A stretch of 41,249 nt of DNA from Acidobacteriota bacterium (GTDB lineage Bacteria > Acidobacteriota > Terriglobia > Terriglobales > Acidobacteriaceae), in NCBI GenBank assembly GCA_003225535.1, contig QIAL01000362.1:1-41249 (forward strand), in the 5' to 3' direction. Positions 3,376 through 41,249 of the stretch are shown here, piece by piece. Each line of letters begins with the position of its first letter. Position 1 is the stretch's first letter. The position numbers and the translations under genes are program-made. The notes beneath the pieces are model-generated. The model did no database searches. It was given only the letters and a program-made list of their open reading frames with translations, and was not told the origin of the DNA.

Positions 3376-4794
3376 TCAGAACTTCGTTACTTCCGTAAAG
3401 TTGAATTCCTTCACTTTCATCGCGGGCACTACCATGTCGAACGATTCCTCTCCGCACGCCCGCACCGGCACGCTCATCGCTTCGACATTGGAAAGCATAT
3501 GGATCAAGCTCTCGTTGAACCGGAAGTTGCGTACTCCGCCCTGCAGGCGTCCGTTCTCCACAAGAAACGTACCATCGCGAGTCATGCCGGTGAGCACTTT
3601 TTCAAACGGTTCGACCTCGCGGATGTACCACAGCCGGGTGACCAGGATTCCCCGCTCCGTCGACGCAATCATCTGCTCGATGGTCTGCGGATCACTCGCC
3701 AGTGCGAACACAATATTCAGCGGCATCTCTCCCATCTCGTTAGGCAGTGGGAAACCGTGTCCGGTCGCCTCAATCGGCCCGGCTTTTTCGCGATACTCGG
3801 ACTTCTTCATTCTCTGTGCGGTCGCACGGGCGTACACGACGCGCTTGATGATCCCATTCTCCACCAGCGGGATTGTTTTCCGGGTCATGCCTTCCCCATC
3901 GAAGGGAGATCCCGCCTGCTGCGGATGTGCGACATCGTCGACGATCGTTACGTTCTCGCCGAACAATCTGCTTCCGATTCGCCCTGTCAAAAACGACCTC
4001 TGATCGAGAATCGCCATCCCCGAATAGTCCCAGAACATGAAGCCCACGATATCGAGCACTGCCGCGGGTTCCAGGATCACCGTGTACTTCCCCGCCGGAA
4101 TCTCCCGTGGATGCCTGGTCTCAACGGCCTTCTGCGCGGCAATCTCGGCCAGTCTCAGCGGATTGAGATGCGCCACATCCGGCGAATTCGCCTTCTGCCA
4201 CCCTGAGGAATCCCCCGCCAGCATGGTGATCGAAACCTCCGCCGAAGTCTGCGTATGCCACCGGCTCAATCCGCGAGAATTAAAGATCCCGTCAATCCAT
4301 TCGCCGCTAGAGAAGACCCCAGCCGTAGTCAGCCTGTGCCGATCCGCAACCCCGACAATTTTGCTGACACCCTCCGCCCGCAACTCAGGAGTAATCCCCG
4401 CAGTCTGTTCAAAATATCGCGAAGGCACGACCCGCGTAGAGACAGGCGCCTCGCCTGTCAGGCCAGGGCGAAGCCCGGCCGCTTCATCTTCGGAAGGCGT
4501 GGGCAAAAGGTCCGGATCCGACTGCTGAACCTTAGCCAGATTTTCCGAGGATCGCACCACCTGCCGCAGACTCTCATCATCGAACTTGTTCGTAGTCGCC
4601 CGCGCCGTCCTTCTACCAAACGCCGTCCGCACCGATACCACATGATTCGCTTCCGCCACATTCTGATGAATGACGTTGTTCGCGAACCGTGTGAGCGCAA
4701 ACCGCCCGCCCGAGAAAAGTACTTCCACCTCGTCCGCGCTCGAAAGCTTCCGGATGCGGTCAAAGACATCACCGGCTTGTTCCTTGGTCAGCAT
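3376..4794 (-). CDS. pmbA: TldE/PmbA-family subunit of the TldD-TldE metalloprotease, carrying a palindromic-repeat insertion
   Basis: A 472-residue protein with the TldD/PmbA fold throughout. Recognisable stretches are GRFALTRFANNVIHQN near the N-terminus, SRGLSRWHTQTSAEVSITM in the middle, PAGKYTVILEPAAVLDIVGF, and the closing ENGRLQGGVRNFRFNESL. It lacks an HExxxH zinc motif, as expected for the TldE partner; the zinc site lies in TldD. The heterodimer processes unfolded peptides, as in microcin maturation and CcdA degradation. A palindromic repeat at 4435-4482 is translated in frame as an AAGLRPGLTGEAPVST segment (about residues 105-120), in a linker between conserved blocks. The partner tldD lies just upstream on the same strand but is broken. 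Confidence 0.9.
   Translation of the reverse strand: MLTKEQAGDVFDRIRKLSSADEVEVLFSGGRFALTRFANNVIHQNVAEANHVVSVRTAFGRRTARATTNKFDDESLRQVVRSSENLAKVQQSDPDLLPTPSEDEAAGLRPGLTGEAPVSTRVVPSRYFEQTAGITPELRAEGVSKIVGVADRHRLTTAGVFSSGEWIDGIFNSRGLSRWHTQTSAEVSITMLAGDSSGWQKANSPDVAHLNPLRLAEIAAQKAVETRHPREIPAGKYTVILEPAAVLDIVGFMFWDYSGMAILDQRSFLTGRIGSRLFGENVTIVDDVAHPQQAGSPFDGEGMTRKTIPLVENGIIKRVVYARATAQRMKKSEYREKAGPIEATGHGFPLPNEMGEMPLNIVFALASDPQTIEQMIASTERGILVTRLWYIREVEPFEKVLTGMTRDGTFLVENGRLQGGVRNFRFNESLIHMLSNVEAMSVPVRACGEESFDMVVPAMKVKEFNFTEVTKF
4435..4482. repeat. Palindromic dispersed repeat, form A-like, inside tldE
   Basis: CGTAGAGACAGGCGCCTCGC continues to CTGTC and GGCGAAGCC, so the order GTAG-GACAG-CGCCTCG-CTGTC-GCGAAGCC of form A is kept, with compensating changes in the stem (GACAGGCG/CGCCTGTC). 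Compensating stem changes suggest that the fold, rather than the exact sequence, is conserved. Confidence 0.7.
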
Positions 4795-4836
4795 GCAAAC
4801 TCAAGTAGTTCTCTGTCCCTCTGTGACTCCAGTAGT

Positions 4837-6251
4837 TCAATTCCCCTTGAAAGCGCTGCCCACTTGAATCCCCCGAAATCTTGCCGGCGCGGCTCCATGC
4901 CCCGTTCCCATCACCTGCTGCGGCTGTCCCTTGCCGCAATTCGGCGTGCCCCACAGCGTCCACTCGTCGCGCGAGCAAAGCGCGTCCAGCGAATTCCAGA
5001 ACTCCGTCGTAATCCCCGAGTACGACGGATTCTTCACCATCCGCACGCGCTTTCCACCTTTGATCTCCCACCCAATCTCGCACCCGAACTGAAAGTTGTA
5101 GCGCTTGTCGTCGATGGACCACGAGCGATTCGTCTGCATCAGAATCCCGTGATCCGTCGCTGCAATCAGTTGCTCCAGATTCAGCGGCTTCTGCCCCGGC
5201 AGCAAGCTGATGTTCGTCATGCGGATCATCGGCAGCCTGTTCCATCCTTCCGCCCGCATCGTCCCGCCCGACCGGTTCTCCCCGATCGCATGCGCAGTCT
5301 CGCGCGAACTCAGATAACCGGTGAACAGACCATTCGTGATGATCGCCGTGCACTGCGCCGCCACGCCTTGGCAACCACATTCACTAAATCGCTGCCGTAG
5401 CGCAGCGTGCGCAACTTATCCAGTGTCAGGAAAGAAGTCCCAGCAAAGTTCGCTTCCATCCCCAGCACCCGATCCAGTTCGATCGGATGCCCCACCGATT
5501 CATGAATCTGCAACCCAAGCTGCGAACTATCGAGAATGATGTCGAACTTTCCCTCCGGACATTGATCCGCTTTATGCAGCGCGACCGCCTCTTCCGCGAT
5601 GCGCCGGGCGTTCTCCACCAGCTTCAATTCTTCGATCAGCTCATATCCCTTGTTCTGCCACTGCCCGCCAAATGAATTCGGATACGAGCGTTTCTGAATC
5701 TCGCTCCCCGCAAACGCATAAGCTGCATACCCGGCGCCGGTGGAAAGTCTCGTCTGATGAATGTCCGCGCCTTCCGATGACGCAAACCACTGCTCTTCCC
5801 GGCTGAAGTTCAGGTTCGTCTCGGCCAGCGTAATCCCCACCACAGACCTTAATTCAGTATCGATTCTCAACAACAGTTCGATGTTCTGTTCCACCGAGAT
5901 CGTAAACGGATCGATTTTGTAAGGCATACTCCACTCCGCGACCGCAGCCTTCTCCGGAGCCAGCCGAACATCTTCCTTCTTCACCCGTGCCGATGCCTTG
6001 GCGATCTCGACAGCCTGCGCTGCGGTGGCTTCCACCGCCCCGCGCCCTAACTCCGCTGACGCTGCGAAACCCCACGCGCCCTCGACGATCACGCGCACAT
6101 TCATCCCCACTGATTCCGAATCCGATGCGCTCCCGACCTTCCCGTTCTTGGTGCCCAGCGCCCGGCTGCGCTGCGCAATCACACGGACGTCCGCGTAGGT
6201 CGCCCCTCGCGACGCCGCGGCGGTCAAAGCCCAATTGCAAACGTGTTTCAT
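4837..6251 (-). pseudogene. tldD: TldD zinc protease subunit, broken by an out-of-frame internal deletion
   Basis: Two minus-strand frames together make one TldD. Residues 1-290 lie in 6251 to about 5372, including the zinc motif HESVGHPIELDR and the conserved LRYGSDLVNVV. The C-terminal 175 residues (IITNGLFTGYLSSRETAHAIGENRSGG onward) continue in another frame from about 5364 to 4837. In the family these parts are joined by a conserved segment of about 16 residues (Asp-Ala-Thr, then a Gly-rich loop ending Asp-Asp-Glu-Gly-Val). Here it is absent, and the frame shifts at about 5366-5372, consistent with loss of roughly 47 bases. The catalytic half is kept but the protein cannot be made full length. 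It may be a true pseudogene or an assembly deletion. It is the first gene of the tldD-tldE-SnoaL set. Confidence 0.85.
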
Positions 6252-6454
6252 GCGAAGAATTTCAATCTAACACATGCCCGCGGGCTCAACCCCGGCGGTC
6301 AGAAAAGCACCGTTGCCTACCCCTCGCCGCACACACACTCCCCTGTGATTCTGAGCACGGCTTATGAGACTCCCTTGCAGTCCAATAGACGCGAATGCCA
6401 CTTCCAAAAGGGATTGCGCCACCCTTGTCTGAACGAAGAAGGAGTTTGACGCCC

Positions 6455-7675
6455 ATGAGTCTTTATTTTTCGGAGCCCAGCACCTCGTCGCCCACATCTG
6501 AAATTGATGACACGTCCACCGCAACCCCGTCTTATTCCGACACTCAGGCCAGCAAGAAAGCCGACCTCGCAGGTCCAGGCATCGGGGACTATGCCGAGTT
6601 GGAGAAGATCCTGCCGCAGGACTACCACCCTCTTCTAACTCCGAAAGAAACGCAAAAAGCACTCTTCCACTTGCGCCGTTACATCGAAGACAATTTATGT
6701 AAAGAGCTCGGTCTGATGATGGTCCAGGTCCCGCTGATCGTCGACGCTGAAAGCGGCGTCAACGACATGCTCGACCGCGACGGCTCCCGTACGCCCATTC
6801 AGTTCCATATCTCGAACGATCGGGACAAGAATCCCATTGACTCCCAGGTTGTTCAAGCCGCGACCAAGTGGAAGCGCGTTGCCCTCAAGCAGTTCAACTG
6901 CCGCCCCGGCGAAGGCATTTGCACCGATATGCGCGCCGTCCGCAAAGACTACTTCCTCGATCACGATCATTCCGCTTACGTCGATCAATGGGATTGGGAA
7001 CGAACTATCACCGCCGAGCAACGCAATCTGGAGTTTCTGAAATCCATTGTGCGGAAAATCTGGAAAGCCCTCGTCGGCGCCGAAAAATTCGCCCAGGAAA
7101 TGTTCCCCGAGCTTCGCAATCCTCGCTATCCTAATCTGCCGGAAGAGCTCACGTTCTTGCACGCCGAAGAACTCTTGGCCATGTACCCTGCTCTCCCGCG
7201 AAAGCGCCGCGAAACCGTCATTCTGCAGAAATATCCGGCGGTCTTCATTATCGGTATTGGATGGCCCTTGAAAGACGGCTACCCGCACGAAATGCGCGCC
7301 GCCGACTACGACGACTGGATCACCGATACCAGCAGTCAAACCAACCGCGACACCCACGGTCTCAACGGCGATATCCTGGTCTGGAACCATGTCACCCAGC
7401 GCCGCCACGAGCTGAGTTCCATGGGCATCCGCATCAATGCCGAAACCCTGCGCCAGCAACTCGAGATGTCCAACCTGCTCGACAATCTCAAATTCCCCTA
7501 CCACCAGGGAATCATCAACAACGTGCTCCCGCTCTCTGTCGGCGGTGGCATCGGCCAATCCCGCACCCTGATGCTTCTACTGCGCAAAGCACACTTAGGA
7601 GAAGTCAGCGTCACCGTGTGGCCAAAAATCTTGAAGGAGATGTGCGCCAAGAAGAATATTTTCGTGCTGGAGTAG
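6455..7675 (+). CDS. asnA: Aspartate-ammonia ligase (asparagine synthetase A)
   Basis: ATP-dependent, ammonia-using synthesis of asparagine from aspartate through an aspartyl-AMP intermediate, by a class II aminoacyl-tRNA-synthetase-like fold. Family signatures are complete: KWKRVALKQF, GEGICTDMRAVRKD, SAYVDQWDWER, MRAADYDDW, LNGDILVWN, ELSSMGIRINAETL and VGGGIGQSRTLMLLL. The ATG at 6455 is chosen because AAGGAG lies at 6439-6444 with ideal spacing; an in-frame upstream ATG at 6395 has none. The product is 406 residues against about 330 in enterobacteria. The excess is mostly an N-terminal Ser/Thr-rich extension of about 50 residues that looks disordered. The gene stands alone on the plus strand. 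Confidence 0.95.
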   Translation: MSLYFSEPSTSSPTSEIDDTSTATPSYSDTQASKKADLAGPGIGDYAELEKILPQDYHPLLTPKETQKALFHLRRYIEDNLCKELGLMMVQVPLIVDAESGVNDMLDRDGSRTPIQFHISNDRDKNPIDSQVVQAATKWKRVALKQFNCRPGEGICTDMRAVRKDYFLDHDHSAYVDQWDWERTITAEQRNLEFLKSIVRKIWKALVGAEKFAQEMFPELRNPRYPNLPEELTFLHAEELLAMYPALPRKRRETVILQKYPAVFIIGIGWPLKDGYPHEMRAADYDDWITDTSSQTNRDTHGLNGDILVWNHVTQRRHELSSMGIRINAETLRQQLEMSNLLDNLKFPYHQGIINNVLPLSVGGGIGQSRTLMLLLRKAHLGEVSVTVWPKILKEMCAKKNIFVLE

Positions 7676-7736
7676 CGCAGGCGGGTTTTGATTTCAACGC
7701 GGGGCCTGAATCTTGAAGGCTCACGGGAGGTGCTTC

Positions 7737-8123
7737 ATGCCCCTTCGTTCGAGGTTTGTCATCAGCATTACTCTGCTGAGTGCGCTGGCAATCATCCCTT
7801 TTTTGTCGTGTGGCTACAACGGCTGCGCCGACATCCCGGTTCTTAACTCGATCTCGCCCACGAGCGCATCTGCCGGAGGCCCGGCCTTTATCATGACCTT
7901 GACCGGCAGGCACTTTCACACCGACACCGTTTTCTTCTTTGGAGGCACCGAGCTTGCCAGCACGACCGTCAGTGCCGCGACAATGACTGCGAGCATCGAC
8001 AGCATTTACATATCGACGCCCGCCACGCTCGACGTTTGGGTCACCGGCATCCCTGGAGGAAGCAACCTGAACGGTCCATGCGGCGGCGGCCTGTCGGCCA
8101 AACTACCGTTCACAATCCAGTGA
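7737..8123 (+). CDS. Small lipoprotein with an IPT/TIG-like domain
   Basis: A 128-residue protein. The ATG at 7737 has GGGAGG at 7725-7730; an earlier TTG at 7713 lacks such support. The N-terminus is a lipoprotein signal: positive MPLRSR, a hydrophobic stretch, then PFLSC with the lipidated Cys at residue 25. The mature part begins with PVLNSISPTSASAGGPAF, the typical first strand of an IPT/TIG immunoglobulin-like domain. FIMTLTGRHFHTDTVFFFGG and the ATLDVWVTG strands follow. It is presumably anchored in the outer membrane or periplasm. No enzymatic motif is seen. It sits 61 bp after asnA, with no obvious functional link. Confidence 0.75.
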   Translation: MPLRSRFVISITLLSALAIIPFLSCGYNGCADIPVLNSISPTSASAGGPAFIMTLTGRHFHTDTVFFFGGTELASTTVSAATMTASIDSIYISTPATLDVWVTGIPGGSNLNGPCGGGLSAKLPFTIQ

Positions 8124-8171
8124 TCGAACTGATGGCTAGAGATCTATGATCGGGATTGGCGATCGATAGGT

Positions 8172-9017
8172 TTAGGGAGCAGTGTGCGCCAGTTCCAGCG
8201 CCTTCTTCACCGCCAGCAATTCCTTCAATACTCCCCGCAGTTTGGTCGACTCCAGCGCGTTCGCTCCATCCGACTTCGCTTCTTTCGGATTGTCGTGCAC
8301 TTCCATGAACACGCCATCCACCCCAGCCGCTACTGCCGCCCTCGACAGTACCGGGATAAACTCCGGCTGTCCCCCACTCACCGCCGGCCCTTTGTCGTCC
8401 GCTTGCGAAGACGGCAACTGCACTGAGTGCGTCGCATCGAAAACGACCGGCGCAAACTTCCGCATGATCGGCAGCGATCGCATATCAACGACCAGGTTGT
8501 TATAGCCAAAGCTCGCCCCGCGCTCGGTTAGAAACACCTGCGCATTCCCCGCCTCGCGGCACTTCTCCACCGCATGCCGCATATCCCATGGAGCCACGAA
8601 CTGCCCCTTCTTGATGTTGACCACGCGCCCGCTTAACGCCGCTGCTACCACAAGGTCCGTCTGCCGACTGAGGAATGCGGGAACCTGTAGCACATCGACG
8701 ACTTCCGCGACCTTCGCAACATCGGCCGTCTCATGCACATCGGTCAACACCGGCAGGTCCAACTCGTTCTTGATCTTCTTCAGAATCCGCAGACCTTCCT
8801 TCAACCCGGGTCCCCGAAAGCTGCGAATCGACGTTCGGTTTGCCTTGTCGTAACTCGCTTTGAAGATGAATGGAAAATCGAGCGACTTCGTCACTCCTTT
8901 GATGATTTCCGCCATCCGGATCGCGTGCTCTTCGCTCTCAATCACGCACGGTCCAGCGATCAAAAACAGATCACCAGACCCGATATGGATATCGCCGACT
9001 TGGAAGGAAGTTGTCAT
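8172..9017 (-). CDS. kdsA: 3-deoxy-D-manno-octulosonate 8-phosphate synthase, metal-dependent class
   Basis: Condenses phosphoenolpyruvate with arabinose 5-phosphate to give KDO-8-phosphate for lipopolysaccharide inner core synthesis in the cytosol. All family blocks are present over 281 residues: [78 protein letters not shown] and the C-terminal [11 protein letters not shown]. The first active-site block reads AGPCVIESE. The Cys (residue 24) occupies the position that is Asn in the metal-independent enterobacterial enzyme, which places this protein in the metal-dependent class like Aquifex KdsA. It lies 76 bp downstream of pyrG on the same strand, a common pairing, and implies a Gram-negative envelope. 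Confidence 0.95.
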
Positions 9018-9093
9018 CCCAAAAATCTAAGGACACGCAAGAACACGACGCCATGAAAAGCCTTCGTGTAACTTCGTGTCCTTCGTGGTTATT

Positions 9094-10630
9094 CTATCGC
9101 CCCGCGACTCGCTCCGGCCGGTGGAACATCTCCACCTCAACCGTTTCTTTCTCAGCTTTTCGCTTCTGCCCATATTCGTAAGCCGCTCCCACAAACGTCC
9201 GGAACAAAGGATGCGGCTCCAGCGGCTTCGACTTGAACTCCGGATGGAACTGGCACCCGATAAAGTGCGGATGATCCGGCAACTCGATCATCTCCACGTA
9301 AGTCCCGTCCGGCGTCGACCCTGAAATGCGCAGCCCGGCAGCCACCAACGGCTCCTCGTATTCGCGATTGAATTCGTACCGATGCCGGTGCCGCTCGCTG
9401 ATTTCGAGCACTCCATAGATCTTGTGCGCCAGGGTATTCGGCTCAATCTTGCAAGTCCAGGCGCCCAGCCGCATGGTTCCGCCCAACTCTTCCACTCCGC
9501 GCAACTCGCGCAACTTATAGATCACCCGATGCGGCGTCGCCGGATCAAACTCGCTTGAGTTCGCATCTTCCAGTCCAACCACATTCCGTGCGAACTCGAT
9601 GCACGCCGTCTGCATCCCCAGGCAAATTCCGAAATACGGAACTCTCTTCTCGCGCGCATCCTCGAGTTGCGCTTCGTAGCTCTTGTCGCCGGTCTCCAGT
9701 CCTTCCGCCTCAATCCAGTTCAGTTGTAGCTTCAGGTTGTGCGCCAAAGCGCCATGCACCAGCGCCTCCTTCAGCGACTTGTACGAATCTTCGTACTCCA
9801 CATACTTGCCAACGATCCCAATCGTCACCGTGTCCTTCGGGTTGTATACGCGGTGGACAATATCCTCCCACTTCGCGAGGTCGCGGTCCTTCGCTTCCAT
9901 GTGCAGATTCTTCAGCACCAGCGTGTCCACATTCTCATTCGCGAACACCAGCGGCACCTCGTACACCGACGCAACATCCTTCGCCGTGATCACTGCCTCT
10001 TCTGGAACGTTGCAGAACAGCGCGATCTTCGACTTCATCTCCTTTGCCAGGAAACGGTCGGTCCGGCAAAGCAAAATGTCCGGTTGAATTCCGATGCTCA
10101 ACAACTCCTTCACCGAGTGCTGCGTCGGCTTCGTCTTCAGTTCCTGCGCCGCGGCGATAAACGGCACCAGCGTCACATGCACAAACAAGGTATGCTCGCG
10201 CCCCAACTCCTGCCGCATCTGCCGGATCGCTTCCATAAATGGCAACGACTCGATGTCGCCCACCGTCCCGCCAATCTCCACAATCGCGATATCGACTTCC
10301 TGCGCCACCTTCTTCATTGCGGCCTTGATCTCATTGGTGACGTGCGGAATCACCTGCACCGTCTTTCCCAGATAATCTCCGCGCCGCTCCTTGGCGATGA
10401 TCTGCTCGTAAATCCGCCCCGTCGTCCAATTGTTGTCGCGAGAAACTCTCGACTTCGCCGTGCTGAAACGGCGACATCGTCCCCGGATCCACATTCAGAT
10501 AAGGATCGAACTTCATCAGGTTGACCTTGATCCCGCGGCTCTCCAGCAGGCATCCGATCGAAGCCGCGGCAAGTCCCTTGCCGAGTGAAGACACTACTCC
10601 CCCAGTCACAAAGATGTACTTCGCTGGCAT
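9094..10630 (-). pseudogene. pyrG: CTP synthase with two internal deletions, one of them frameshifting
   Basis: CTP synthase makes CTP from UTP, ATP and glutamine. The N-terminus ([20 protein letters not shown] to [14 protein letters not shown]) is in one frame from 10630. The rest, from [12 protein letters not shown] onward, is in another frame down to 9094. The conserved block that joins them in the family (the DDGAETDLDLGHYERF region, about 22-25 residues, with Mg/UTP-binding acids) is missing at about 10447-10451. A second loss at about 9655-9664 is in frame: SYEAQLEDAREKRVPYFGICLGMQ runs directly, without the usual LVPGGFG-R-G-EGM segment that forms the oxyanion hole of the glutaminase. 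The nucleophile Cys in GICLGMQ and the His-x-Glu in CQFHPEF remain. Because pyrG is generally essential, an assembly artefact or a second copy elsewhere is likely. Confidence 0.88.
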
Positions 10631-10784
10631 CTCTTCCTCGCTTTAAATTGTTTTTGGAAAATTGTGCAGGTGGCGTGCACAATCAATTATGGCAGAAAAC
10701 CCCTGTGGAAGAAACGAAAGAAATCGTCCTTCGCAAGATTTTCCTTCGTGCCTCTTCGTTCCCTTTATGGTTATGTAGGATTTT

Positions 10785-10834
10785 TGTGGGGCAGCCGTCC
10801 TCGGCTGTCCGGTCGAGCGATGCTCGACGGCTGC
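10785..10834. repeat. Palindromic dispersed repeat, form B
   Basis: It starts TGTGGGGCAGCCGTCCTCGG and forms one hairpin (CAGCCG/CGGCTG). A second perfect hairpin follows, GTCGAG-CGATG-CTCGAC type. The same two-part plan with small changes recurs at 40782-40829 inside the lhr fragment. The first hairpin is shared with form A copies at 35371 and 36044. Confidence 0.75.
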
Positions 10835-10878
10835 TGCACCCGACCCTGCAAACTGTTTCGGTCTCACACCTCCCCGCG

Positions 10879-10908
10879 TTGACTATCTCTCCCTAAACGG
10901 CGAGAATA
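10879..10908 (+). promoter_or_regulatory. Candidate sigma-70 promoter for tRNA-Ala
   Basis: TTGACT at 10879-10884 and AGAATA at 10903-10908 are 18 bp apart and lie about 43 bp upstream of the tRNA 5' end. The -35 matches consensus at five of six positions; the -10 is weaker. Confidence 0.4.
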
Positions 10909-10950
10909 ATTGAGGTCACCAGCACCAAGACAGTAGTGTCCCCAAAATGT

Positions 10951-11026
10951 GGGCCTGTGGCGCAGCTGGGAGCGCGCTTCCATGGCATGGAAGAGGTCGT
11001 CGGTTCGATCCCGACCAGGTCCACCA
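10951..11026 (+). tRNA. tRNA-Ala (anticodon GGC)
   Basis: A standard 76-nt cloverleaf. The acceptor stem pairs GGGCCTG with CAGGTCC (one G-T pair). The D-arm contains GCGCAGCTGGGAGCGC. The anticodon stem CTTCC/GGAAG encloses ATGGCAT with anticodon GGC. The T-loop is GGTTCGATCCC, and the CCA at 11024-11026 is encoded. From the anticodon loop onward, the tRNA plus 13 downstream bases is exactly duplicated at 29299-29356, which marks this gene as the attachment site of a genomic island. The tRNA itself remains intact. Confidence 0.97.
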
Positions 11027-11039
11027 AATCCCTCAACAA
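10982..11039 (+). repeat. Left attachment repeat (attL) of the tRNA-Ala island
   Basis: A 58-bp direct repeat identical to 29299-29356. It covers the 3' half of tRNA-Ala from the anticodon loop through CCA, plus the flanking AAATCCCTCAACAA. Sequence diverges at once on both sides of both copies. Long tRNA-3'-end direct repeats bounding a segment with an integrase gene are the standard footprint of tyrosine-recombinase integration. Confidence 0.92.
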
Positions 11040-11040
11040 G

Positions 11041-11565
11041 TTAAACAGGGCGCGTGCTCACAGGGCGGGCATTTGTGTCATGGTTTGTGTCATAACCCGC
11101 CGCTTTGGTGCTCACGGCGAGGGCTTCCATCGCGGTTCGTTTCGCTTCCATCCGTTCGTGACTGTACCGCTCCAACAACGCACCGTTCTCTGCAAGCTGC
11201 GTGATGGCGCAATGCCGCAGATCGTGGAACCGGAAGCCCGGCAATCGCGCCTTTTTTGTTAGCGTCCTCCAGGCCGACCGCCAGCTATTCAGGTGCCGCG
11301 TGGGATCGAAGCCTGTGACGTTGTAATCAATCACTCTCTTGCCGGAGAAGGTGAACTTGGGAACAAAGGCCGCAAAGACGTCGTGTACCGGTTCGACCGG
11401 GCCGAAAGCCTCAGCGCTTCGGCGCAGCCTTGCCAGAACAGACACCGTCACGTCGGTCAGCGGTACAATCCGCTCGCCAGCAGCCGTTTTTGACTTGCGA
11501 ATCGTAAGGGTCTTTGCGAATAGGTCTACATCCGAGACGTTCCGGCAACCCAAAGCACATTGCAC
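11041..11565 (-). pseudogene. Tyrosine integrase remnant of the tRNA-Ala island
   Basis: A 174-residue C-terminal piece of a phage-type integrase. DLFAKTLTIRKSKTAAGERI and the HDLRHCAITQLAENG motif (catalytic HxxR) are recognisable, and LERYSHERMEAKRTAMEAL supplies the nucleophilic Tyr. The N-terminal DNA-binding part is absent. The box I arginine region appears lost upstream of CRNVSDVDL. Between ENGA and LLERYSH the usual box II segment of about 16 residues with the catalytic Gly-His is missing, in frame, at about 11179. The stop lies two bases outside attL, and the gene points at the tRNA, the expected orientation. It cannot be an active recombinase as read. Confidence 0.85.
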
Positions 11566-11693
11566 AACAGGAAAGACAGAACCACTGAGCGCAAAGAGGC
11601 TCGCATAGTCACCTCACCCCAAGGCAATTGAATGGATGGCGAATTATACGAGCGGGAGGACTAAAATCGACCAACTGCAACATTAAAGTTTGC

Positions 11694-13040: not shown

Positions 13041-13073
13041 TGGATTCCCGGTTGGAACGGGTTGTGCTCACAC

Positions 13074-15196: not shown

Positions 15197-15367
15197 GGTT
15201 CTCCGGCCAGTAAGTATATTGCGGTTCGAGCTAAATCGTTAGAGAAGTCAGATGAAAACTTATTCAGAAAGGACATCTGTACGCCGGCCCAGCTCACGAT
15301 CCTGAATAACGTCTAATCCCATCTTCATGGGGTGTTAATGTAGACCCGCCACGATTGACATCCCGCC

Positions 15368-17016: not shown

Positions 17017-17043
17017 GAATTATCGAGGAAGACTGTTGTGAAA

Positions 17044-17110: not shown

Positions 17111-17141
17111 TCCAACAGGCTCCCTGTAACAGCGAGGAAAC

Positions 17142-18218: not shown

Positions 18219-18257
18219 GTCCTTTTCCCGGTGCATCGGAAACCCACAGAATCCGGC

Positions 18258-19280: not shown

Positions 19281-19369
19281 GTGATCCTCCAGTTCTTACG
19301 ATTGCAGAAAAATCTTAAACCGGCATTAAAAGTAGATTAAATCCCGTTCAGCGAACTTCGCTCTTATAG

Positions 19370-29298: not shown

Positions 29299-29356
29299 AT
29301 GGCATGGAAGAGGTCGTCGGTTCGATCCCGACCAGGTCCACCAAATCCCTCAACAA
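29299..29356 (+). repeat. Right attachment repeat (attR), partial tRNA-Ala copy
   Basis: A 58-bp exact copy of 10982-11039: the tRNA-Ala anticodon loop to CCA end and 14 more flanking bases. The 5' half of the tRNA is absent, so this is not a functional tRNA gene. It marks the right boundary of the island. Chromosomal sequence resumes at 29357. Confidence 0.92.
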
Positions 29357-29683
29357 TTTGGGTGGTCACAAAACGTGACCTTGCGCTAGATCAGAGCTGC
29401 GCCTATTTCACGCGGCATCGTTCGACGATCTCTGTATCTCGTGTTCCATAGCTTTGGCTGACTGGTTTGCCTGTTCGTTTAACTCCTCAAGTCGCCGCCG
29501 CATATCCAGCCCCGCATTTCTTGAGAGCCGCACAATGTTCGCAACCCTGGCTGTGCCCCACGAAAGTCAGCGCTGAGCAAAACCCACGTCTCAATGAGGT
29601 CACGTGTCTCCTCCTATAGACGCCAACGAATGCTTTCCAAACCACGCCCGTCCGGTTCTCCCCTCCGGACGGGCGGGCCTGCG
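29357..29683. other. Intergenic region to the right of the island
   Basis: About 330 bases. A minus-strand frame at 29408-29503 reads MRRRLEELNEQANQSAKAME and could be the C-terminal scrap of a lost helical protein; confidence is low. A strong hairpin at 29645-29675 serves the multicopper oxidase gene as a possible terminator. Confidence 0.4.
29645..29675 (-). terminator. Hairpin downstream of the multicopper oxidase gene
   Basis: A perfect 11-bp inverted repeat, CGCCCGTCCGG / CCGGACGGGCG, with a 9-nt loop lies nine bases beyond the stop of the minus-strand oxidase gene. A short T-containing run (TGGTTTGG) follows on the minus strand. The stem is strong, but the U-tract is imperfect. Confidence 0.5.
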
Positions 29684-33546: not shown

Positions 33547-33859
33547 CAACCTCTAAGGATTTATTTGGCGGGATCTTGAGCGGAAGATTCCCTTGGCAAC
33601 GGCTATCCGGGAAGACCCTGTGGCCGGCCACGGCCAGAAGAGGTGCACTAGACTTGCTACACCTCAGCACTGAAGACGTCCAGGCGCTTGCTTTTCTGTA
33701 ACCCTTTGCCAAGAACGTACCCCGGATCTAGTACCCCGGAGTACAGTTTCTCAGGATGGAGCTACAGAAAGCACAGTATAGCGATTGCCACATCTGTATT
33801 CAAACGGAATTTCAGGCCCCTGGCCAGTTTCGTATTCGCCCATGGATTCGGGGCGCACC
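33547..33859. other. Leader/intergenic region upstream of the lipoprotein gene
   Basis: About 310 bases between two minus-strand genes. It holds the candidate structured leader at 33592-33713 and a tandem GTACCCCGGA direct repeat at 33717-33726 and 33731-33740 that may be an operator. No coding sequence is seen. Confidence 0.5.
33592..33713 (-). promoter_or_regulatory. Possible degenerate c-di-GMP-I (GEMM-like) riboswitch
   Basis: On the minus strand, CTTGGCAA at the 5' end pairs perfectly with TTGCCAAG at the 3' end as a closing stem. The 3' half reads GCCACAGGGTC-TTCC-CGGATAGCCG-TTGCC, which resembles the P3 helix and closing strand of GEMM riboswitches. The element begins just after GGCAAA, as in GEMM. 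The conserved CGCAAAGCC core is not found: an atypical, long hairpin occupies that place. It sits about 45 bp upstream of a surface lipoprotein gene, a common type of target. The assignment is tentative. Confidence 0.3.
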
Positions 33860-35278: not shown

Positions 35279-35370
35279 GTCAGATGCCCCTCATGTTACA
35301 CGCACAAACGCAGGCGATCCCCCGTGCTTGTGAAGCGCCGGATGCTTTAGTCCGTCCCGCAATCGACTCG

Positions 35371-35417
35371 TGTAGCGACAGCCGCCTCGGCTGTCCCGCG
35401 AAGGCGAAGCCAAGCGG
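35371..35417. repeat. Palindromic dispersed repeat, form A (intergenic copy)
   Basis: A 47-bp unit starting TGTAGCGACAGCCGCCTCGG, with the hairpin GACAGCCG-CCT-CGGCTGTC, followed by CGCGAAGGCGAAGCC. It differs at two positions from the copy at 36044-36090 inside the M23 peptidase frame. It lies between the APC permease and L,D-transpeptidase genes. Confidence 0.85.
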
Positions 35418-35440
35418 AATCTTCCCTGCTGCCCGCGCTC

Positions 35441-35934
35441 TCACTGCCGAATCTCAATCGCCGTCCCATCCCCCACTGCCTTCCAAATCTCCTCAATCTC
35501 CTCGTCAGTTACTGCGATGCACCCATCCGTCCAATCCTTCGCCCGATGTGAAGCCCCAACCCACCCATATCCATTCGGCAGTCCATGCACAAACACATCT
35601 CCACCCGGAGAAACCCCTTGCGCTCGCGCCGCTGCCCGATCCCGCGCGTTCGGATACGAAATGTGAATCGACTTGTGAAATTGACTGTGCGCATTCCGCG
35701 AATCGAGAACGTAGATTCCCTCCGGAGTCTTGTGATCCCCCTGCCGCGTCTTCGCCCCTACCGGATCTCCACCCAGCGCCACCCTATAAGATTTGATGAC
35801 CTGCCCCCGGTCAGCAACTGCAGCATGCGCTCCTTCTTCAGCACCACCACTCGATCCGCATGCAACGGCTTCGCCGCCGTCTGCGCCATCGCCATCCCGC
35901 ACAGCATCCAAGCAGTAAGCACCCAGATTCGCAT
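35441..35934 (-). pseudogene. L,D-transpeptidase (YkuD fold) with a one-base frameshift
   Basis: The N-terminus MRIWVLTAWMLCGMAMAQTA (start at 35934) is a signal peptide, followed by ADRVVVLKKERMLQLL. The catalytic part continues in another frame as GQVIKSYRVALGGDPVGAKT, GDHKTPEGIYVLDSRN, HISYPNARD, then the active site VFVHGLPNGYGW and DWTDGCIAVTDEEIEEIW, with nucleophilic Cys and the conserved His. The two frames abut at about 35803-35810 within a run of five Gs/Cs. Adding one base restores a continuous L,D-transpeptidase, so this is a simple indel or a sequencing error rather than a large loss. The enzyme would form 3-3 peptidoglycan cross-links or attach proteins to the wall. It is divergent from the M23 peptidase gene. 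Confidence 0.82.
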
Positions 35935-35973
35935 GCCCGGATTATAGCCACCAAATGCTACGCTGATGGAGTG

Positions 35974-36975
35974 ATGCCGCCCGAACTCATGTGGGAACCA
36001 ACTCGCAAGCCACAATCCAAACTGCCGTGGATGTCTCAACTCATGTGGCGACAGCCGCCTCGGCTGTCCCGCGAAGGCGAAGCCGAGCGGCCCCGACCAC
36101 AAACTCTTCCCCTCTGCCTAGGCCTGACCTTGCTTGTTCTCACCTTGCCCCTACACGCAGCCATCCCCTGGACCATCCACACACAACCCACCCGCCTCCT
36201 GAACGGCGCCCCCGTCCTATTCCAAGTAAAAGCGCCGACAAAGCTAGATTCCTTAGCCGGCACATGGCTCGGCCACCAACTTTCCTTCAGCTACAGCCCA
36301 TCTGCCAAGGTTTGGTTCGCTTTGGCTGGTGTCAGTTTCGAGACAAAGCCCGGAAAGTACACGCTCGAACTCGCGGGCGAGAACGCAGTGACGAAAACGC
36401 CTCTCAAGTTCAGTAGCACTTTCACTGTCGCTCGTGCACAATACCCTGAGATCAAAGTCGAACTATCGGTCGAAAAGAAATTCACTGAGCCTAGCCCCGA
36501 ACAGCTGAAGCAAATTGACGAATCGAAGAAGGTTAAAGAGGAATACCTCGGTCGCGTCACTCCCGACCGCGAATGGAATGGAAATTTCGCAGCCCCCGTC
36601 GATGCGCCGACCTCTGACGTCTTCGGTTCTCGACGCATCTTCAACGGAGTGGCCCAGAGAGAGCACCAAGGCCTCGACTACCGCGTCCCCACAGGAACAC
36701 CCGTCGCCGCCATGAACGACGGCACAATCCTGCTCGCCCGCTTTCTATATTTTGAAGGAAATTGTGTAGTGATCGATCACGGCCAGGGGCTACTCACCTT
36801 GTACTTCCATATGTCCGAATTGAAAGTGAAGGAAGGAGACCCTGTAAAACGCGGTCAACTGATCGGTCTCAGCGGAGGCACCGGTCGCGCCACCGGACCT
36901 CACCTCCATGTCGCCGTCCGCTGGCAAGCCACCTATCTCGATCCCGCCCGCCTTATGCAACTATCTGTCCCGTAA
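35974..36975 (+). CDS. M23-family (LytM) peptidoglycan endopeptidase with a repeat in its N-terminus
   Basis: About 333 residues. The C-terminal domain has the zinc ligands of M23 peptidases, H-x(3)-D in REHQGLDYRVPTGTPVAAMN and HxH in TGPHLHVAVRW, plus VVIDHGQGLLTLYFHMSELK. It should cleave peptide cross-bridges in the periplasm. The signal peptide hydrophobic core is LCLGLTLLVLTLPLHAA. Just before it, a form A repeat (36044-36090) is translated as WRQPPRLSREGEAERP. The ATG at 35974 is the most upstream plausible start, but its GGAG is very close. ATGs at 36031 and 36043 are alternatives, and the last would make the repeat supply the first codons. The gene is divergent from the L,D-transpeptidase. 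Confidence 0.87.
   Translation: MPPELMWEPTRKPQSKLPWMSQLMWRQPPRLSREGEAERPRPQTLPLCLGLTLLVLTLPLHAAIPWTIHTQPTRLLNGAPVLFQVKAPTKLDSLAGTWLGHQLSFSYSPSAKVWFALAGVSFETKPGKYTLELAGENAVTKTPLKFSSTFTVARAQYPEIKVELSVEKKFTEPSPEQLKQIDESKKVKEEYLGRVTPDREWNGNFAAPVDAPTSDVFGSRRIFNGVAQREHQGLDYRVPTGTPVAAMNDGTILLARFLYFEGNCVVIDHGQGLLTLYFHMSELKVKEGDPVKRGQLIGLSGGTGRATGPHLHVAVRWQATYLDPARLMQLSVP
36044..36090. repeat. Palindromic dispersed repeat, form A (inside the M23 peptidase frame)
   Basis: 47 bp, 45 of them identical to 35371-35417. It lies in the region coding for the N-terminal side of the signal peptide and stays open in the host frame. Confidence 0.85.
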
Positions 36976-36994
36976 GCGTACCCAAAAACCCTTG

Positions 36995-38965
36995 TCATCC
37001 CGAGCCGCGGCCTTTCGCGGCTCCCCCCGACACTCGTCCTCGCCCGCGCAGCGCTTGATTCAACTCGTCCTTCAGTCCCAGATTTCGAATCAACCGATGC
37101 AGATAATTCGGGTGCACTCCCAGTATTCCCGCCGCTTCCACGTAATTCCCGCCAGTCTGCTCCACCGCATCCAGAATCAACTGCTTCTTCAACTCCTTCA
37201 CGCTGCCGTGATACTTCCCCTCGGTGATGTCCTCCGGCGCATTCTGCTCCAGCAGCGATTCCGGCAGATCTTCCAGCAAAACCATGTCCGACGATCCCAT
37301 CACCAGCGATCGCTCAATCGCGTTTTCCAGTTCGCGCACATTTCCCGGCCATTCGTAATGGACCAGCGCGGCCATCGCCTCGCGTGAAATCGGTTTCGCT
37401 TTCACCCGGCACCGCATCGCATATTTCTGCAGAAAATGCCGCGTCAGCATTGGAATATCTTCCCGTCTCTCGCGCAGCGGAGGCATGGTCATCTTCACCA
37501 CTGCCAGCCGGTAATAAAGATCCTGGCGGAATTCTACCTTCCGCACTGCGTCTTCCAGATCGCGATTCGTTGCCGCGATCAGCCGGATATTCACCTTGAT
37601 CGGATGCGTCCCGCCCACGCGCTCAAACTCCCGCTCCTGCAAAACGCGCAGCAGTTTCACCTGCAGCGCCGGAGCTAGTTCGCCGATCTCGTCCAGGAAT
37701 ACCACTCCGCCATCGGCAACTTCCAGCCGTCCCTTTTTCTGCGTTGCCGCCCCGGTAAACGCGCCCCGTTCATGTCCGAATAGATCGTCCTCCAGAAGTG
37801 TCTCGGGGATGGCCGCACAATTGATCGCGACGAATGGCTTGGTCGCCCGCGGGCTGTTCCGATGCAGCGCCTTCGCCACCAGTTCTTTTCCCGTTCCGCT
37901 TTCGCCTTCGATCAGAACCGTCGAATCCGACGGCGCAACTCGCGCCAGGAATTGGAAAATCTCCTTCATCCGCGCGCCCTCTCCCACCAGGCTTTGGTCC
38001 TGCCTGATTTCCGTCAAGAGACGCTGATTCTCCTGTTCCAGCCATTGCAACCGGCGCGCATTATCCAGCGCCACCGCCGAAACTCCCGCCACTCCCGCCA
38101 TCAGTTGCAGATGTTCTTCATTGAAACGGTTCGCCGCATTCGTGCTATCGAGATAGATGCATCCGATCATCCGCTGAAAAACGCTCAGCGGAACGCATAC
38201 CAGAGACCGGACGTGAGAAGCTACCAGGCTCTCCACCTCCCGAAGATTCCCGCTCGACGCGATGTCCACGCCTAGAATCGCAACATTCTCTTTCATCACC
38301 TTCCGGGCAATGGTTCGGCTCACTCGCACCAATTGCGGCTGTCCGCCCTGCCGCGTTCGCGCATAGAGCGAATTGAATTCCTGGCCCTCGCCTTCTGAGA
38401 GCAGAATCGCCCCTCGGCCCGCCGGTACTACTTCGAAGATCAAGTCCAGCAATTGCGCCTGCAACTCTTCCAGATCGCGGATCGCATGCACCACCCGGCT
38501 GATCTTCAGCAACGCATTCAGATTTCGCCCCACCTGTGATGTCGCCGGAAGTTCCTTCAGCAATCGGTCCGGCTGCAGATACACCGCTTCCTTGGGATGA
38601 ATCAGCCGAGTCTCTGCCATCGGCTGCCCGTCGTCGAACTCCACCTGGCTCGCAGATGCCGCTCGATCCTCATCGTCCACCAGGAACAGAAATAGTGAGT
38701 CCCCGGTCGTAATCTCATCCCCATGATGGAGATACTGCTCCTTCATCGGATTGCCATTCACCAGCGTTCCGTTGCGGCTCTCCAGATCCTTGATCGAAAA
38801 GCGCCCGTCTTCTTCTTGACGCAGCAGGCAATGTTTTCGGGAAACGGACGGATCGACAATTGCCACCACATTTGCCGGATCGCGACCGATCGTGGCTTCT
38901 CCGTCCGGCAACGGAATGGTCAGGTCTTTCGAGGGTCCCGCAATCACCAGTAGTCTGGGCCGCAA
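36995..38965 (-). CDS. FHA-GAF-AAA+ sigma-54-dependent transcriptional activator
   Basis: 656 residues. An FHA domain (about 15-100; [31 protein letters not shown]) recognises phosphothreonine. A GAF-like domain spans about 150-310. The AAA+ domain has Walker A GESGTGKE, the sigma-54 contact loop GAFTGA and Walker [13 protein letters not shown], with arginine-finger region [10 protein letters not shown] Fis-type HTH follows ([20 protein letters not shown]), and a basic Gly-rich tail ends the protein. It replaces the usual receiver with FHA plus GAF, so the input is probably a Ser/Thr kinase signal and a small ligand. The TTG start at 38965 has GGGAG six bases upstream. It should remodel RNA polymerase-sigma-54 at -24/-12 promoters. 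Confidence 0.94.
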
Positions 38966-39560
38966 TCAGGTCTCCCAAGGGGGTGCAGAATCTTCTACCA
39001 TAGCGCGGCCCGATTTGCATGAGCCACCTTCACCTTTTTCAATATCCGAACAGTTAGTCCGACTATCCGTTCAGATAGCTCCGTTCATGGATCCATCTCC
39101 CCGAGCGCTAGGCGGAATCAAAATCCTCCAAGCTAAATCATTGCAGGAACACCATTTCCACCTACACAGGAAGATCGTGGGGTGCTCCTTCAAACTTGGA
39201 ATATGGATTGCTACCTATCAGGATGCGGATGCTCGGCAAAAGCGATGGGGGAAGCGCTTTTCGAGAAGTTCTAGCCGGTCAACGCCAAAATCAGAGGCTC
39301 GGGGGACCCCCTCATCGAGCCTCTGTTTTTTGCGCCTAAAGAGGGACCATTAAAGCGGCGTTCGTGGAATACCCTGCCTCGCCGCACTATCTGCGAAGAG
39401 CCGCTCTTGATTCTGTGTAGAGACTCTGGCAGAAGATTCTGTGTAGCCGCTGCCGCCGTCCTGCCGCTCGACCGGGAGACGCTCGCCGGATGTGCCGTGG
39501 AAGAGCGGCCCTTTAGGGCCGCGTTGGAATCCTTAAAAAAAGGGGCTTTAGCCACAGTGG
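38966..39560. other. Intergenic region with terminators and possible RNA gene
   Basis: About 595 bases. It contains the upstream region of the FHA activator (minus), a strong hairpin with T6 on the plus strand at 39292-39331, and the double-hairpin repeat/terminator at 39505-39567. No protein-coding frame with domain character is found. The stretch 39060-39290 upstream of the plus-strand terminator is unexplained and could encode a small RNA. Confidence 0.5.
39292..39331 (+). terminator. Intrinsic terminator with no assigned plus-strand gene
   Basis: A perfect 10-bp stem CAGAGGCTCG / CGAGCCTCTG with a 14-nt loop is followed directly by TTTTTT on the plus strand. The minus-strand side ends in ATTTTGG, so it may be bidirectional. 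The minus-strand lhr gene already has its own terminator nearer its stop. Confidence 0.75.
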
Positions 39561-39567
39561 CTACCCC
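39505..39567 (-). terminator. Terminator of the lhr-like gene within a double-hairpin repeat
   Basis: On the minus strand, GGGG-TAGCCAC-T-GTGGCTA-AAG-CCCC is followed by TTTTTTT (39541-39535), a classic intrinsic terminator whose stem overlaps the stop codon. A second hairpin, GCGGCCCT-AA-AGGGCCGC type, lies just beyond at 39505-39522. The two-hairpin plan resembles the repeat at 17044-17110. Confidence 0.75.
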
Positions 39568-41249
39568 GCCGCCTCACTGACCAGCGCACTCGACCCCGCC
39601 ACCACCGCCACCCCATCCCGATAACTCACCGTCCGACCGGAAATCGCCGGCACCCTTTCCCCCGGCACAAGGATCCCCACCAGATTCAACGGATCCGCCG
39701 CCGACAGAGTAATCGTCTCTCCGCTCAACGGCAGGCTGCGCATCGACCGCACCGACTCGACTGCCACCGGCAGCGCGAACTGCTCGCCCAGAAATCCATC
39801 CACGAATCTTCCCCCGCGAATCTCTCCCCGATCTTCCAGTCGCCGGAAAGCCATCAGCAACTCGCGCCACGAAGGCAGATTCGCCTCCCGCGCCAACAAA
39901 TCGCGAATCACAATCCCATACCGCCGCAACAGCATCCAGCACGCCGCCTCCACCGCCCGCGGACGCTCCACGGCCGCATCTGCATGCAGCAGCGCCCAAC
40001 GTCCCGAACTGTGCCTCGGCCGCACGCTGCGTCCGCTTCCCTGTCCTGCCCTCCGCTTCGGATCAATCAGCGCCCGCAGATTATCGAACCCATCGGCTGT
40101 CACCAGCCCACCCGCCACCAACTCCCACAACGCAGTCTCAATCTCCGCTTTCAATTTCCCAGTCCCGCGCACGATGTCCGCAAAGAAAGACGCCCCCCGC
40201 GCCTTCAGGAACTCGAACACAACCTCCGCGCTATTACTCAACCCGCGCGCCTGATGGGAGTCATCATCCCGAGGGTGCCCCACCCTTGTCGCGTTTTGTG
40301 CGACAGGGTGGGGATTTTGACGTACCCCCATCCAATCCGCTTCCTCGCGCACAAAGAACGTAATCGGAGCCACGCTGGTAGGAATGACTCGTCGCTGCCG
40401 AGGCACAGCCCCATCAGAAGTTCCACTAGTTTCCAGCGTAGCCGGATGCGGCGACAACCTCCCCCATCCCACCACTCCCGTCAGGCAAAGCTGATCCAGC
40501 CACTTCGGATCGTAATCCGTCACCCGCCGCGCCAGCACCTGCCGCTCCCACGCATTCGCCGGAACCTCAAACCCCTGCAACTGCTGCAAGACTTCCATCG
40601 TCCCGCGCTCGCCCGCAGCCTGCGATCCTGGAGCCACATGCTGCCACCGCAACAACCACCGCAAAAACTGCGCCGCCGTAACCGGCTCAATCTGCTTCCG
40701 CAGCATCCCCACAGTCAGCCGATGTATGCGAGCCAAAAGTCTCCGCTCACACCACTCAACCTCAGATTCTTGAGAGGAATATGTGGGGACAGCCGCCATC
40801 GGTTGTCCAGTCGAGCGATGCTCGACAGGATTGTGTGGCGTGGGCGCTCCCGCCCGCGCACTGCCAGAGCCAGTAAACGACCCACGCAGGACAGTCCCCG
40901 CCGCCTCCATGCGCAGCAGCCCCTTCTCAATATCCGAACCCGAAAGCCCGAGCCGATCCCCAAGCTGCGAAGCAGTAGTAGGCCCAATCGCCGACATCCA
41001 CCCCATGACAAGACTCAGCAGCGCCTCATCCCGCGAGATCTCCCCTGTCTCCACCTCAGCCAGACTCCGCTCAAACCGAGCCCCCGGAAACAGCGCCTGA
41101 AACGATTGCGCCCGCTCCGCCGCTACCCAATACCGCCGGCCATCCAGCGAAGCAACACCCGCCCGCCCCTGATCCACAAGTCGTTCGAAGAAGCGCCCCC
41201 AATCTCCACTGCTCGTGTAGGGGCGGACGCCTTCGTCCGCCCCGCCGAG
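39561..41249 (-). CDS. lhr: Lhr-type DNA/RNA helicase, C-terminal part (5' truncated at window edge), with three in-frame repeat insertions
   Basis: The frame is open to the right edge, so only the C-terminal 562 codons are visible. Blocks typical of the long Lhr C-terminal region are present: GRRYWVAAERAQSFQALFPG, winged-helix segments (ARIHRLTVGMLRKQIEPVTA, QFLRWLLRWQHVAPGSQAAG), and the end RYGIVIRDLLAREANLPSWR, GEIRGGRFVDGFLGEQFALP and LSAADPLNLVGILVPG. The helicase motor domains would lie outside. Lhr acts in DNA repair as a 3'-5' translocase. Three palindromic repeats (41216-41249, 40782-40862, 40278-40313) are read through in frame. They encode Pro/Arg/Ala-rich peptides such as RQNPHPVAQNATRVGHP that interrupt otherwise conserved domains. 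Confidence 0.85.
   Translation of the reverse strand, partial: LGGADEGVRPYTSSGDWGRFFERLVDQGRAGVASLDGRRYWVAAERAQSFQALFPGARFERSLAEVETGEISRDEALLSLVMGWMSAIGPTTASQLGDRLGLSGSDIEKGLLRMEAAGTVLRGSFTGSGSARAGAPTPHNPVEHRSTGQPMAAVPTYSSQESEVEWCERRLLARIHRLTVGMLRKQIEPVTAAQFLRWLLRWQHVAPGSQAAGERGTMEVLQQLQGFEVPANAWERQVLARRVTDYDPKWLDQLCLTGVVGWGRLSPHPATLETSGTSDGAVPRQRRVIPTSVAPITFFVREEADWMGVRQNPHPVAQNATRVGHPRDDDSHQARGLSNSAEVVFEFLKARGASFFADIVRGTGKLKAEIETALWELVAGGLVTADGFDNLRALIDPKRRAGQGSGRSVRPRHSSGRWALLHADAAVERPRAVEAACWMLLRRYGIVIRDLLAREANLPSWRELLMAFRRLEDRGEIRGGRFVDGFLGEQFALPVAVESVRSMRSLPLSGETITLSAADPLNLVGILVPGERVPAISGRTVSYRDGVAVVAGSSALVSEAAG
40278..40313. repeat. Palindromic repeat (form D) inside the lhr fragment
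   Basis: CCCCACCCTTGTCGC pairs with GCGACAGGGTGGGG around GTTTTGT, with one bulged base. It is translated on the minus strand in the lhr frame. No second copy of this exact form is in the window. Confidence 0.7.
40782..40862. repeat. Composite palindromic repeat (form B plus a second unit) inside the lhr fragment
   Basis: TGTGGGGACAGCCGCCATCG and the GTCGAG/CTCGAC hairpin match form B at 10785-10834. A further TGGGCGCTCCCGCCC hairpin follows. On the minus strand it encodes a Gly/Ala/Pro-rich run (GSARAGAPTPHNPVEHRSTG and beyond) in frame with the helicase. Confidence 0.75.
41216..41249. repeat. Palindromic repeat at the right edge, inside the lhr frame
   Basis: TGTAG is followed by the perfect hairpin GGGGCGGACG-CCTT-CGTCCGCCCC. 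The shared TGTAG entry resembles form A. The unit is read in the lhr frame on the minus strand and is cut by the window end. Confidence 0.65.

Follow-up and report, generated by a model that had tools for sequence, protein, structure and literature searches.

REP doublets forming hairpins (REPINs; REP, repetitive extragenic palindromic) and bacterial interspersed mosaic elements (BIMEs) are mobilised by REP-associated tyrosine transposases (RAYTs). Here we describe family A, a set of short tagged palindromes in an Acidobacteriota genome, starting from a stretch of 41,249 nucleotides (contig QIAL01000362.1, hereafter the window) in which several copies lie in frame within genes. The GTAG superfamily of REPs was defined by Di Nocera et al. 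2013 (PMC3733652). The excerpts of that paper, to which all statements on the superfamily here are limited, report head-head dimers, alternative subfamilies with compensated stems, and in-frame intragenic copies in several species, the hosts being conserved genes that include repair genes and tRNA synthetases; in recB, different REPs lie near the same site in two Xanthomonas species. Most GTAG-20 elements of Opitutus terrae carry GTGG. GTAG repeats are named in these excerpts for Proteobacteria, Cyanobacteria, Chloroflexi and the PVC (Planctomycetes, Verrucomicrobia, Chlamydiae) group, and for Acidobacteria only transposases flanked by terminal inverted repeats are named. Rickettsia palindromic elements (RPEs) are 105–146 bp long, with a tested case given for gmk (PMC2229807, in part), and in R. 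conorii their sequences terminate in CGTC (PMC3733652). ERIC (enterobacterial repetitive intergenic consensus) and NEMIS (Neisseria miniature insertion sequences), both miniature inverted-repeat transposable elements of ~100–200 bp with terminal inverted repeats, have open frames fused in frame with genes, and for a 107-bp Neisseria repeat open frames are linked with intragenic placement (Delihas 2007, PMC2229807, in part).

The initial annotation, made from the window alone, was aware of no account of such elements for this kind of organism. For the phylum this agrees with the open-access papers searched, where the matches listed included nothing about intragenic REPs in Acidobacteria; as a general statement it is too wide, since in-frame GTAG REPs were described in 2013 (PMC3733652, excerpts). 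In-frame intragenic REPs are already known in a few other bacteria; what goes furthest beyond them is that, across a genus, hairpin types change while the coding site stays the same.

The window belongs to a metagenome-assembled genome (MAG) of 6,833,656 bases in 1,086 contigs, 85% complete. The host is a Terriglobales bacterium near Candidatus Sulfotelmatobacter, a Sulfotelmatobacter-like member of the Acidobacteriota. The 57 relatives of its tldE gene in named records are all labelled Acidobacteriota, mostly Acidobacteriaceae, Terriglobia or Sulfotelmatobacter.

Anatomy and distribution of the tagged palindrome

The family-A core is a hairpin, GACAGCCG-CCNT-CGGCTGTC, located directly after TGTGG and usually followed by a second, sequence-variable hairpin with pairing arms. 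In the conservation profile of 77 copies outside called genes, all with a four-base loop and with a GTRG tag as entry condition, the conserved block runs from TGTGG through the 20-nt hairpin to one extra C, after which the sequence is variable to about +45. The core thus measures ~28 nt and the element overall about 28–50 bp. A second hairpin with a score of at least 6 is present in 50 of the 77 copies, compared with 3.4% of shuffles and 8 of 77 for the next downstream stretch. It occurs in 34 different arm/loop combinations. Pairing of its arms reaches 99.6% within a copy, which the selection itself imposes, versus 63% when arms are dealt among copies.

As the initial annotation had proposed, copies were counted genome-wide and by coding share, strand and frame. 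The pattern GACAGCCGNCNTCGGCTGTC, with at most one mismatch, matches 118 places in the genome and none in the reversed control; with three- or four-base loops, family A occupies 141 places. It is present in 25 of 25 same-genus genomes searched (own included), at 4 to 180 places each, and beyond the genus in 2 of 16 other genomes of the class, at 3 and 2 places. The exact four-base-loop pattern occurs in 4 of 297 genomes of the phylum, namely our own (85), one of the same genus (7), one of the same family (18) and one other (1). Within the window, 0.07 matches are expected for the four-base-loop pattern with at most three mismatches, and 4 occur when counted per strand, at 2 places (10790 and 40788); three-base-loop copies fall outside this pattern.

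A census was taken over 541,136 bases, consisting of the window and 60 stretches around family-A places (a subset of the genome-wide list). Counting hairpins with at most two arm mismatches gives 117, of which 110 carry the GTRG tag; the 7 untagged ones were removed. De novo, 139 hairpins with a stem of at least 8 lie behind GTRG against 8–43 for nine control tags or readings, an enrichment inflated for A by a sample chosen around A, while the top control, G[TG]AG with 43, covers GTAG as well. Family-A stems of at least 8 follow GTGG in 84 cases and GTAG in 12, and stem families other than A also appear in this search. Among neighbours less than 400 bp apart, 18 of 20 pairs are inverted with their tags outward and a spacing of 77–156 bp. 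Compensated stem variants occur elsewhere in the genome and the genus.

Genes in the census were called with a simple hexamer model, by which 83% of the 541 kb is coding. The 117 hairpins fall into 98 outside and 19 inside gene calls; for the tagged copies the numbers are 93 and 17, a strong depletion from genes (binomial p=1e-54). Tagged intergenic copies with both neighbours (n=88) lie in 51 tandem, 29 convergent and 8 divergent gaps. Relative to 349 gaps longer than 60 bp, convergent gaps are enriched (29/88 versus 56/349, p=8e-4) and divergent gaps are less frequent (8/88 versus 70/349, p=0.02).

A short high-copy palindrome (20–40 bp), a GTRG tag at the hairpin foot, head-head dimers and a mostly intergenic position in tandem and convergent gaps characterise the GTAG superfamily, and all are found here. 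On the strength of the tag, the hairpin, the tags-outward pairs and the position, the elements are very probably GTAG-superfamily REPs, mostly of the GTGG form. They resemble GTAG-20 of O. terrae, as far as the excerpts describe it, in the short hairpin behind a GTRG tag, the GTGG form, the dimers and the preferred gaps, and GTAG REPs generally in the compensated stem subfamilies and the in-frame copies that include repair genes and tRNA synthetases. They differ from GTAG-20 in the Acidobacteriota host, in the variable second hairpin after the core, and in a genus-wide change of type within the same loop in several genes. The inverted pairs also recall REPINs and BIMEs. ERIC and NEMIS, within what the source text gives, are likewise open-frame repeats in genes, but are longer and bounded by terminal inverted repeats.

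Kinship with RPEs, which had been suggested initially, finds a parallel in the in-frame insertion into conserved genes, but tag, length, sequence and host phylum all differ. RPEs of the length and with the CGTC ends given above stand against elements of about 28–50 bp with a TGTGG tag, which fit GTAG REPs instead. Membership was rejected on tag and size, no search being aimed at CGTC enrichment, and we regard it as highly improbable.

In-frame copies within conserved genes

The 17 tagged copies inside genes are hosted, according to Pfam and NCBIfam models, by lepA, an oppD-like gene, a molybdopterin oxidoreductase, agmatine deiminase, parB, mutS, an acyltransferase, alaS (two copies), a cysteine desulfurase-like gene, an ImuB-like polymerase (DNA polymerase IV/IMS models), an FAD-linked oxidase, an aminotransferase, lpxB, an ABC exporter-type protein, tldE and lhr. 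A copy called inside an open frame is in frame by definition in this census. Homology flanks both sides in 12 of the 17 (shown by a named domain, in lhr by aligned orthologues; ranges by our own reading), and the terminal copies are three N-terminal (oppD, lpxB, parB) and two C-terminal ones (lepA, ImuB-like). Comparison with known structures locates the extra residues: 50 in AlaRS between residues 270 and 277 of PDB 3hxu, 26 in MutS between 188 and 208 of PDB 7ou2, and 24 in agmatine deiminase between 109 and 115 of PDB 1xkn, the alignment skipping the insert each time. Our own alaS frame breaks further along, away from the repeats, and the REP-bearing alaS of two relatives is open (981 and 1057 aa).

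The lhr genes of nine relatives belonging to other families of the class have none of the tagged hairpins; within the genus there are relatives with family A, with another REP, with both and with neither. The mutS and alaS inserts are carried by some same-genus relatives, are missing in others and are absent outside the genus. Since they are missing from relatives in the other families of the class, the intragenic repeats are, as judged from these alignments, real in-frame insertions into protein loops. The orthologue comparison opposes shared ancestral residues and bears out the earlier view of related palindromes that lie both between genes and, as open insertions, inside them.

Might the intragenic cases nevertheless be chance hairpins in GC-rich coding DNA, or artefacts of the gene caller? 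The elements are GC-rich, and some N-terminal cases (oppD, lpxB and the M23 peptidase of the window) may be mis-called starts; however, with 0 control matches genome-wide, homology at both sides of 12 of the 17 copies and segments that are missing in outgroups, this explanation is scarcely credible. The initial annotation had held that avoidance of coding DNA together with chance in-frame cases would speak against insertion. Copies do avoid coding sequence (17 of 110, in DNA that is 83% coding), but those inside genes are not chance.

The 17 copies are 8 sense and 9 antisense; they occur in five of the six strand/phase classes, one antisense class holding 7 of them. Insertions that break a frame were looked for in 13 tight tandem gaps (both flanking frames scanned at 10, one frame at 1, 2 gaps left out), and no flanking pair looks like one cut gene. 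Some of these pairs carry little weight, one being two near-complete cyclophilin domains and two lacking a Pfam match on one side or both. Outside the census, at about position 303 of locus L031, there is another GTAG-tagged family-A hairpin, inside a frame that resembles a ribonucleotide reductase.

The sequence of the element itself may matter for its presence in genes. In 46 nt, 83% of the 77 non-coding copies are stop-free in all six frames, while the figure is 19% for shuffles and 6% for DNA nearby; if the tag were GTAG, none of the 77 would be open in all six. Since all copies descend from one sequence, this amounts to about one observation. We hypothesise that GTGG in place of GTAG removes a built-in TAG stop, opens all six frames and aids survival in genes. 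Among the species in the excerpts of PMC3733652, the largest number of intragenic GTAG REPs is that of O. terrae, whose tag is likewise GTGG. The stop-codon idea is simple and testable across REP-rich genomes, but it gained no support from a small test within the genome, in which the share in coding sequence is not significantly higher for GTGG than for GTAG copies (19/102 versus 5/37, p=0.61). Selection of GTGG to ease insertion into genes was rejected on this result and on the common ancestry of the copies.

Different hairpins in the same protein loops

Loops of tldE, lhr, mutS and alaS were scored for perfect tagged stems of at least 6, degenerate hairpins being excluded from the counts. 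The tldE loop has such a hairpin in 22 of 56 sequences, versus 1 of 560 control windows drawn from those genes; the 34 loops without an intact tagged hairpin include several with decayed remnants. Corresponding values are 5/29 versus 2/290 for lhr loop 1, 11/30 versus 3/300 for lhr loop 2, 3/24 versus 2/240 for mutS and 3/24 versus 1/240 for alaS. When strand and phase were compared, with one mismatch permitted in long stems, 21 of 23 tldE hairpins shared both despite five stem types (2 of 23 are in another phase), and so did 5 of 5 in lhr loop 1, from two families. At one alaS position, two genomes have family A and a third has a GGCGGACG stem. In tldE, lhr and alaS, a given loop carries differing hairpin types in different relatives with strand and frame unchanged, and many other relatives have lost the hairpin.

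On a tree of tldE (56 rows, loop left out), the hairpin types, with 'none' as one type, need 16 changes, against a shuffled mean of 20.1; 16 or fewer were reached in 1 of 200 shuffles. Supported sister pairs nevertheless differ in type, for example the window and L034. With fewer changes than shuffles and yet differing sisters, the tldE type is in part inherited, yet often changes. Genomes whose REP places were listed hold several hairpin types; by eye, the tldE type prevails among the places listed in the L062 genome, and L069, L071 and L077 are mixed, a comparison that covers the part of the places that was listed and, in one listing, 2 of 12 genomes. The stems may change by compensated mutation, or they may be exchanged with copies elsewhere in the genome.

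We tentatively propose, as a possibility rather than as the expected outcome, that loops of conserved proteins are REP sites of long standing, where a resident hairpin is overwritten by one of another family with strand and frame kept, in a manner like conversion and not by new insertion. Repeated independent insertion into the same loops through a preferred target is a competing account. In mutS, family-A-like and GACGGGCG types lie in different phases (3 and 1 copies), which speaks for separate insertions there; lhr loop 2 has two separate positions (6 and 8 copies), alaS carries two elements in opposite orientation, and the 2 tldE hairpins out of the shared phase point the same way. On the other hand, the common strand and phase of 21 of 23 tldE hairpins with five stem types, and of all five in lhr loop 1 from two families, would be surprising if the events were independent, except where target or peptide dictates the phase, since copies in our own genome use five of the six strand/phase classes (7 of 17 in one). 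Independent insertion is for us a possible explanation of the loops, though the less likely one.

A second alternative is that the inserts are kept for a function, with the peptide or the mRNA or DNA hairpin selected, for instance for mRNA stability or as a flexible linker. Differing yet perfectly paired stems at one site, at the tldE frequency given above, and the fact that core genes, alaS and mutS among them, carry repeats are in its favour. Functional retention is nevertheless improbable, as 34 of 56 tldE loops are without an intact tagged hairpin, the alaS and mutS inserts are missing in some same-genus relatives, and copies are strongly depleted from coding DNA. The compensated change that had been noticed in the 8-bp tldE stem GACAGGCG/CGCCTGTC at 4435 is real, one family-A C-G pair being replaced by G-C. 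The same stem is present at one further genomic place and the GACGGGCG form has 5 copies, which fits either a local compensated change from GACGGGCG (found in relatives) or a minor subfamily. It says little about a selected structure at tldE, given the variants elsewhere in the genome and genus and the many tldE loops with no intact hairpin. No benefit to a host protein is shown, and tolerated passenger DNA is the default view.

For the elements as a whole, the most probable course of events is the following. They would spread, now or formerly, by single-strand transposition with a RAYT-type transposase, and selection would remove most insertions into genes. A few copies in flexible loops would survive, perhaps helped by the stop-free six frames of the usual element. 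For TldE, an AlphaFold model (mean pLDDT, predicted local distance difference test, 51.5, too low for use in a fold search), in which residues 106–124 fall below 50 within a better-modelled N-terminal half, lends weak support to a flexible linker. An element settled in a loop would be inherited for long, and its hairpin type would change there, either step by step through compensated mutations or through conversion by copies elsewhere in the genome.

Several points weigh against this picture. The like coding shares of GTGG and GTAG copies belong here, as does the lhr loop at 40278, with 0 of 30 tagged hairpins versus 12 of 300 control windows. Frameshifts distant from repeats in three genes of the MAG (tldD, pyrG and alaS) may be small assembly errors. 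Unlike in REPINs and BIMEs, no RAYT could be tied to family A: none with family-A REPs on both sides was found at the 32 loci scanned, from 108 Y1_Tnp matches in 27 genomes.

Mobilisation of family A by a RAYT is something we infer. The genome itself has three Y1_Tnp matches, one with an internal stop. Paired flanking tagged hairpins were seen at only L033 and L272 among the scanned loci, neither of family A; at L033, one of the three matches in our own genome, the Y1_Tnp gene is flanked by two REPs of the CGCGGGCA family, identical over 38 nt, as would be expected for a RAYT gene. A degenerate A hairpin lies ~450 bp upstream of a broken RAYT at L031, and an intact one ~900 bp from the Y1_Tnp match at L294.

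The window and its wider bearing

A palindromic element is present at all seven places named initially (Table 1), with a GTAG or GTGG tag at six and an untagged longer hairpin at 40278. The tagged hairpin at 41216 is of another stem family, and the repeat at 40278 is unrelated to forms A or B.

Table 1. Elements and host genes in the window (positions from its first letter)
Feature	Positions	Strand	Basis
GTAG-tagged REP, stem GACAGGCG/CGCCTGTC, loop CCT, then second hairpin	4436..4480	+	antisense, in frame within tldE
tldE/pmbA homologue, REP in variable linker (~residues 97–124)	3376..4794	-	Pfam PF19289 and PF01523 (PmbA_TldD); alignment with related loci
Family-A REP, GTGG tag and second hairpin; outside genes, pyrG/tRNA-Ala gap	10785..10829	+	hairpin and gene scans
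Family-A REP, GTAG tag, loop CCT; outside genes	35371..35414	+	hairpin scan
Family-A REP, GTGG tag, loop CCT; M23 peptidase N-terminus, ahead of signal-peptide core (translation uncertain)	36044..36090	+	
M23 peptidase as called; longer frame starts at 35860	36130..36975	+	Pfam PF01551
lhr C-terminal part, truncated by contig end, three repeat-bearing loops	39561..41249	-	Pfam PF23234 and PF23235 (WH3_Lhr/WH4_Lhr, on 39561–41177); orthologues
Longer hairpin CCCCACCC...GGGTGGGG, no GTRG tag; other dispersed repeat, in frame in lhr	40278..40313	.	
Family-A REP, GTGG tag and second hairpin; antisense, in frame in lhr	40782..40827	+	
GTAG-tagged REP, different stem family GGGCGGACG/CGTCCGCCC; antisense, in frame in lhr, contig end	41216..41244	+	

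The peptide of the 40278 repeat (like NPHPVAQNATRVGHP) gives weak dispersed matches on other contigs of our own and related genomes, and by eye about 6 of 21 genus members have this type of hairpin at the same lhr site. The repeat of the M23 peptidase, said initially to lie inside its coding frame, is indeed present, but it is N-terminal and its translation is uncertain because the gene caller puts the start downstream of it. Of 24 M23 sequences, about 10 have a REP-like segment ahead of the signal-peptide core (by eye). In the relatives L183 and L186, a second, unrelated repeat-like stretch is nested in frame within the REP-derived N-terminal segment. A TGCTANGCT motif shortly ahead of the likely M23 start (window ~35945–35975) is seen by eye in many relatives, and its position suggests a leaderless transcript.

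The tldD gene adjoining tldE (4837–6251, minus strand) is split into two overlapping frames, called at 4837–5364 and 5310–6227, by a frameshift with no repeat nearby, perhaps an assembly indel. The pyrG gene (9094–10640, minus strand) changes frame early, its N-terminal part being in another frame, also with no repeat; alaS on another contig has a frameshift like that of pyrG. The pyrG and alaS breaks mean that small indel errors or recent frameshifts exist in the MAG. Elsewhere in the window, 10982–11042 and 29299–29359 form a 61-nt direct repeat of 98% identity, 18 kb apart. It consists of the second half of tRNA-Ala(GGC) and its downstream flank, only the first copy being called as a gene by ARAGORN, and may be the att-like mark of an integrated element.

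With these observations, the range of REPs lying in frame inside genes widens to a large soil phylum of which little has been cultured. The many orthologous sites with and without inserts are a basis on which to ask how REPs enter genes, how they persist there, and whether compensated mutation or exchange changes them. If the proposed overwriting is true, dispersed genomic REPs would continually rewrite the same protein loops across the genus.

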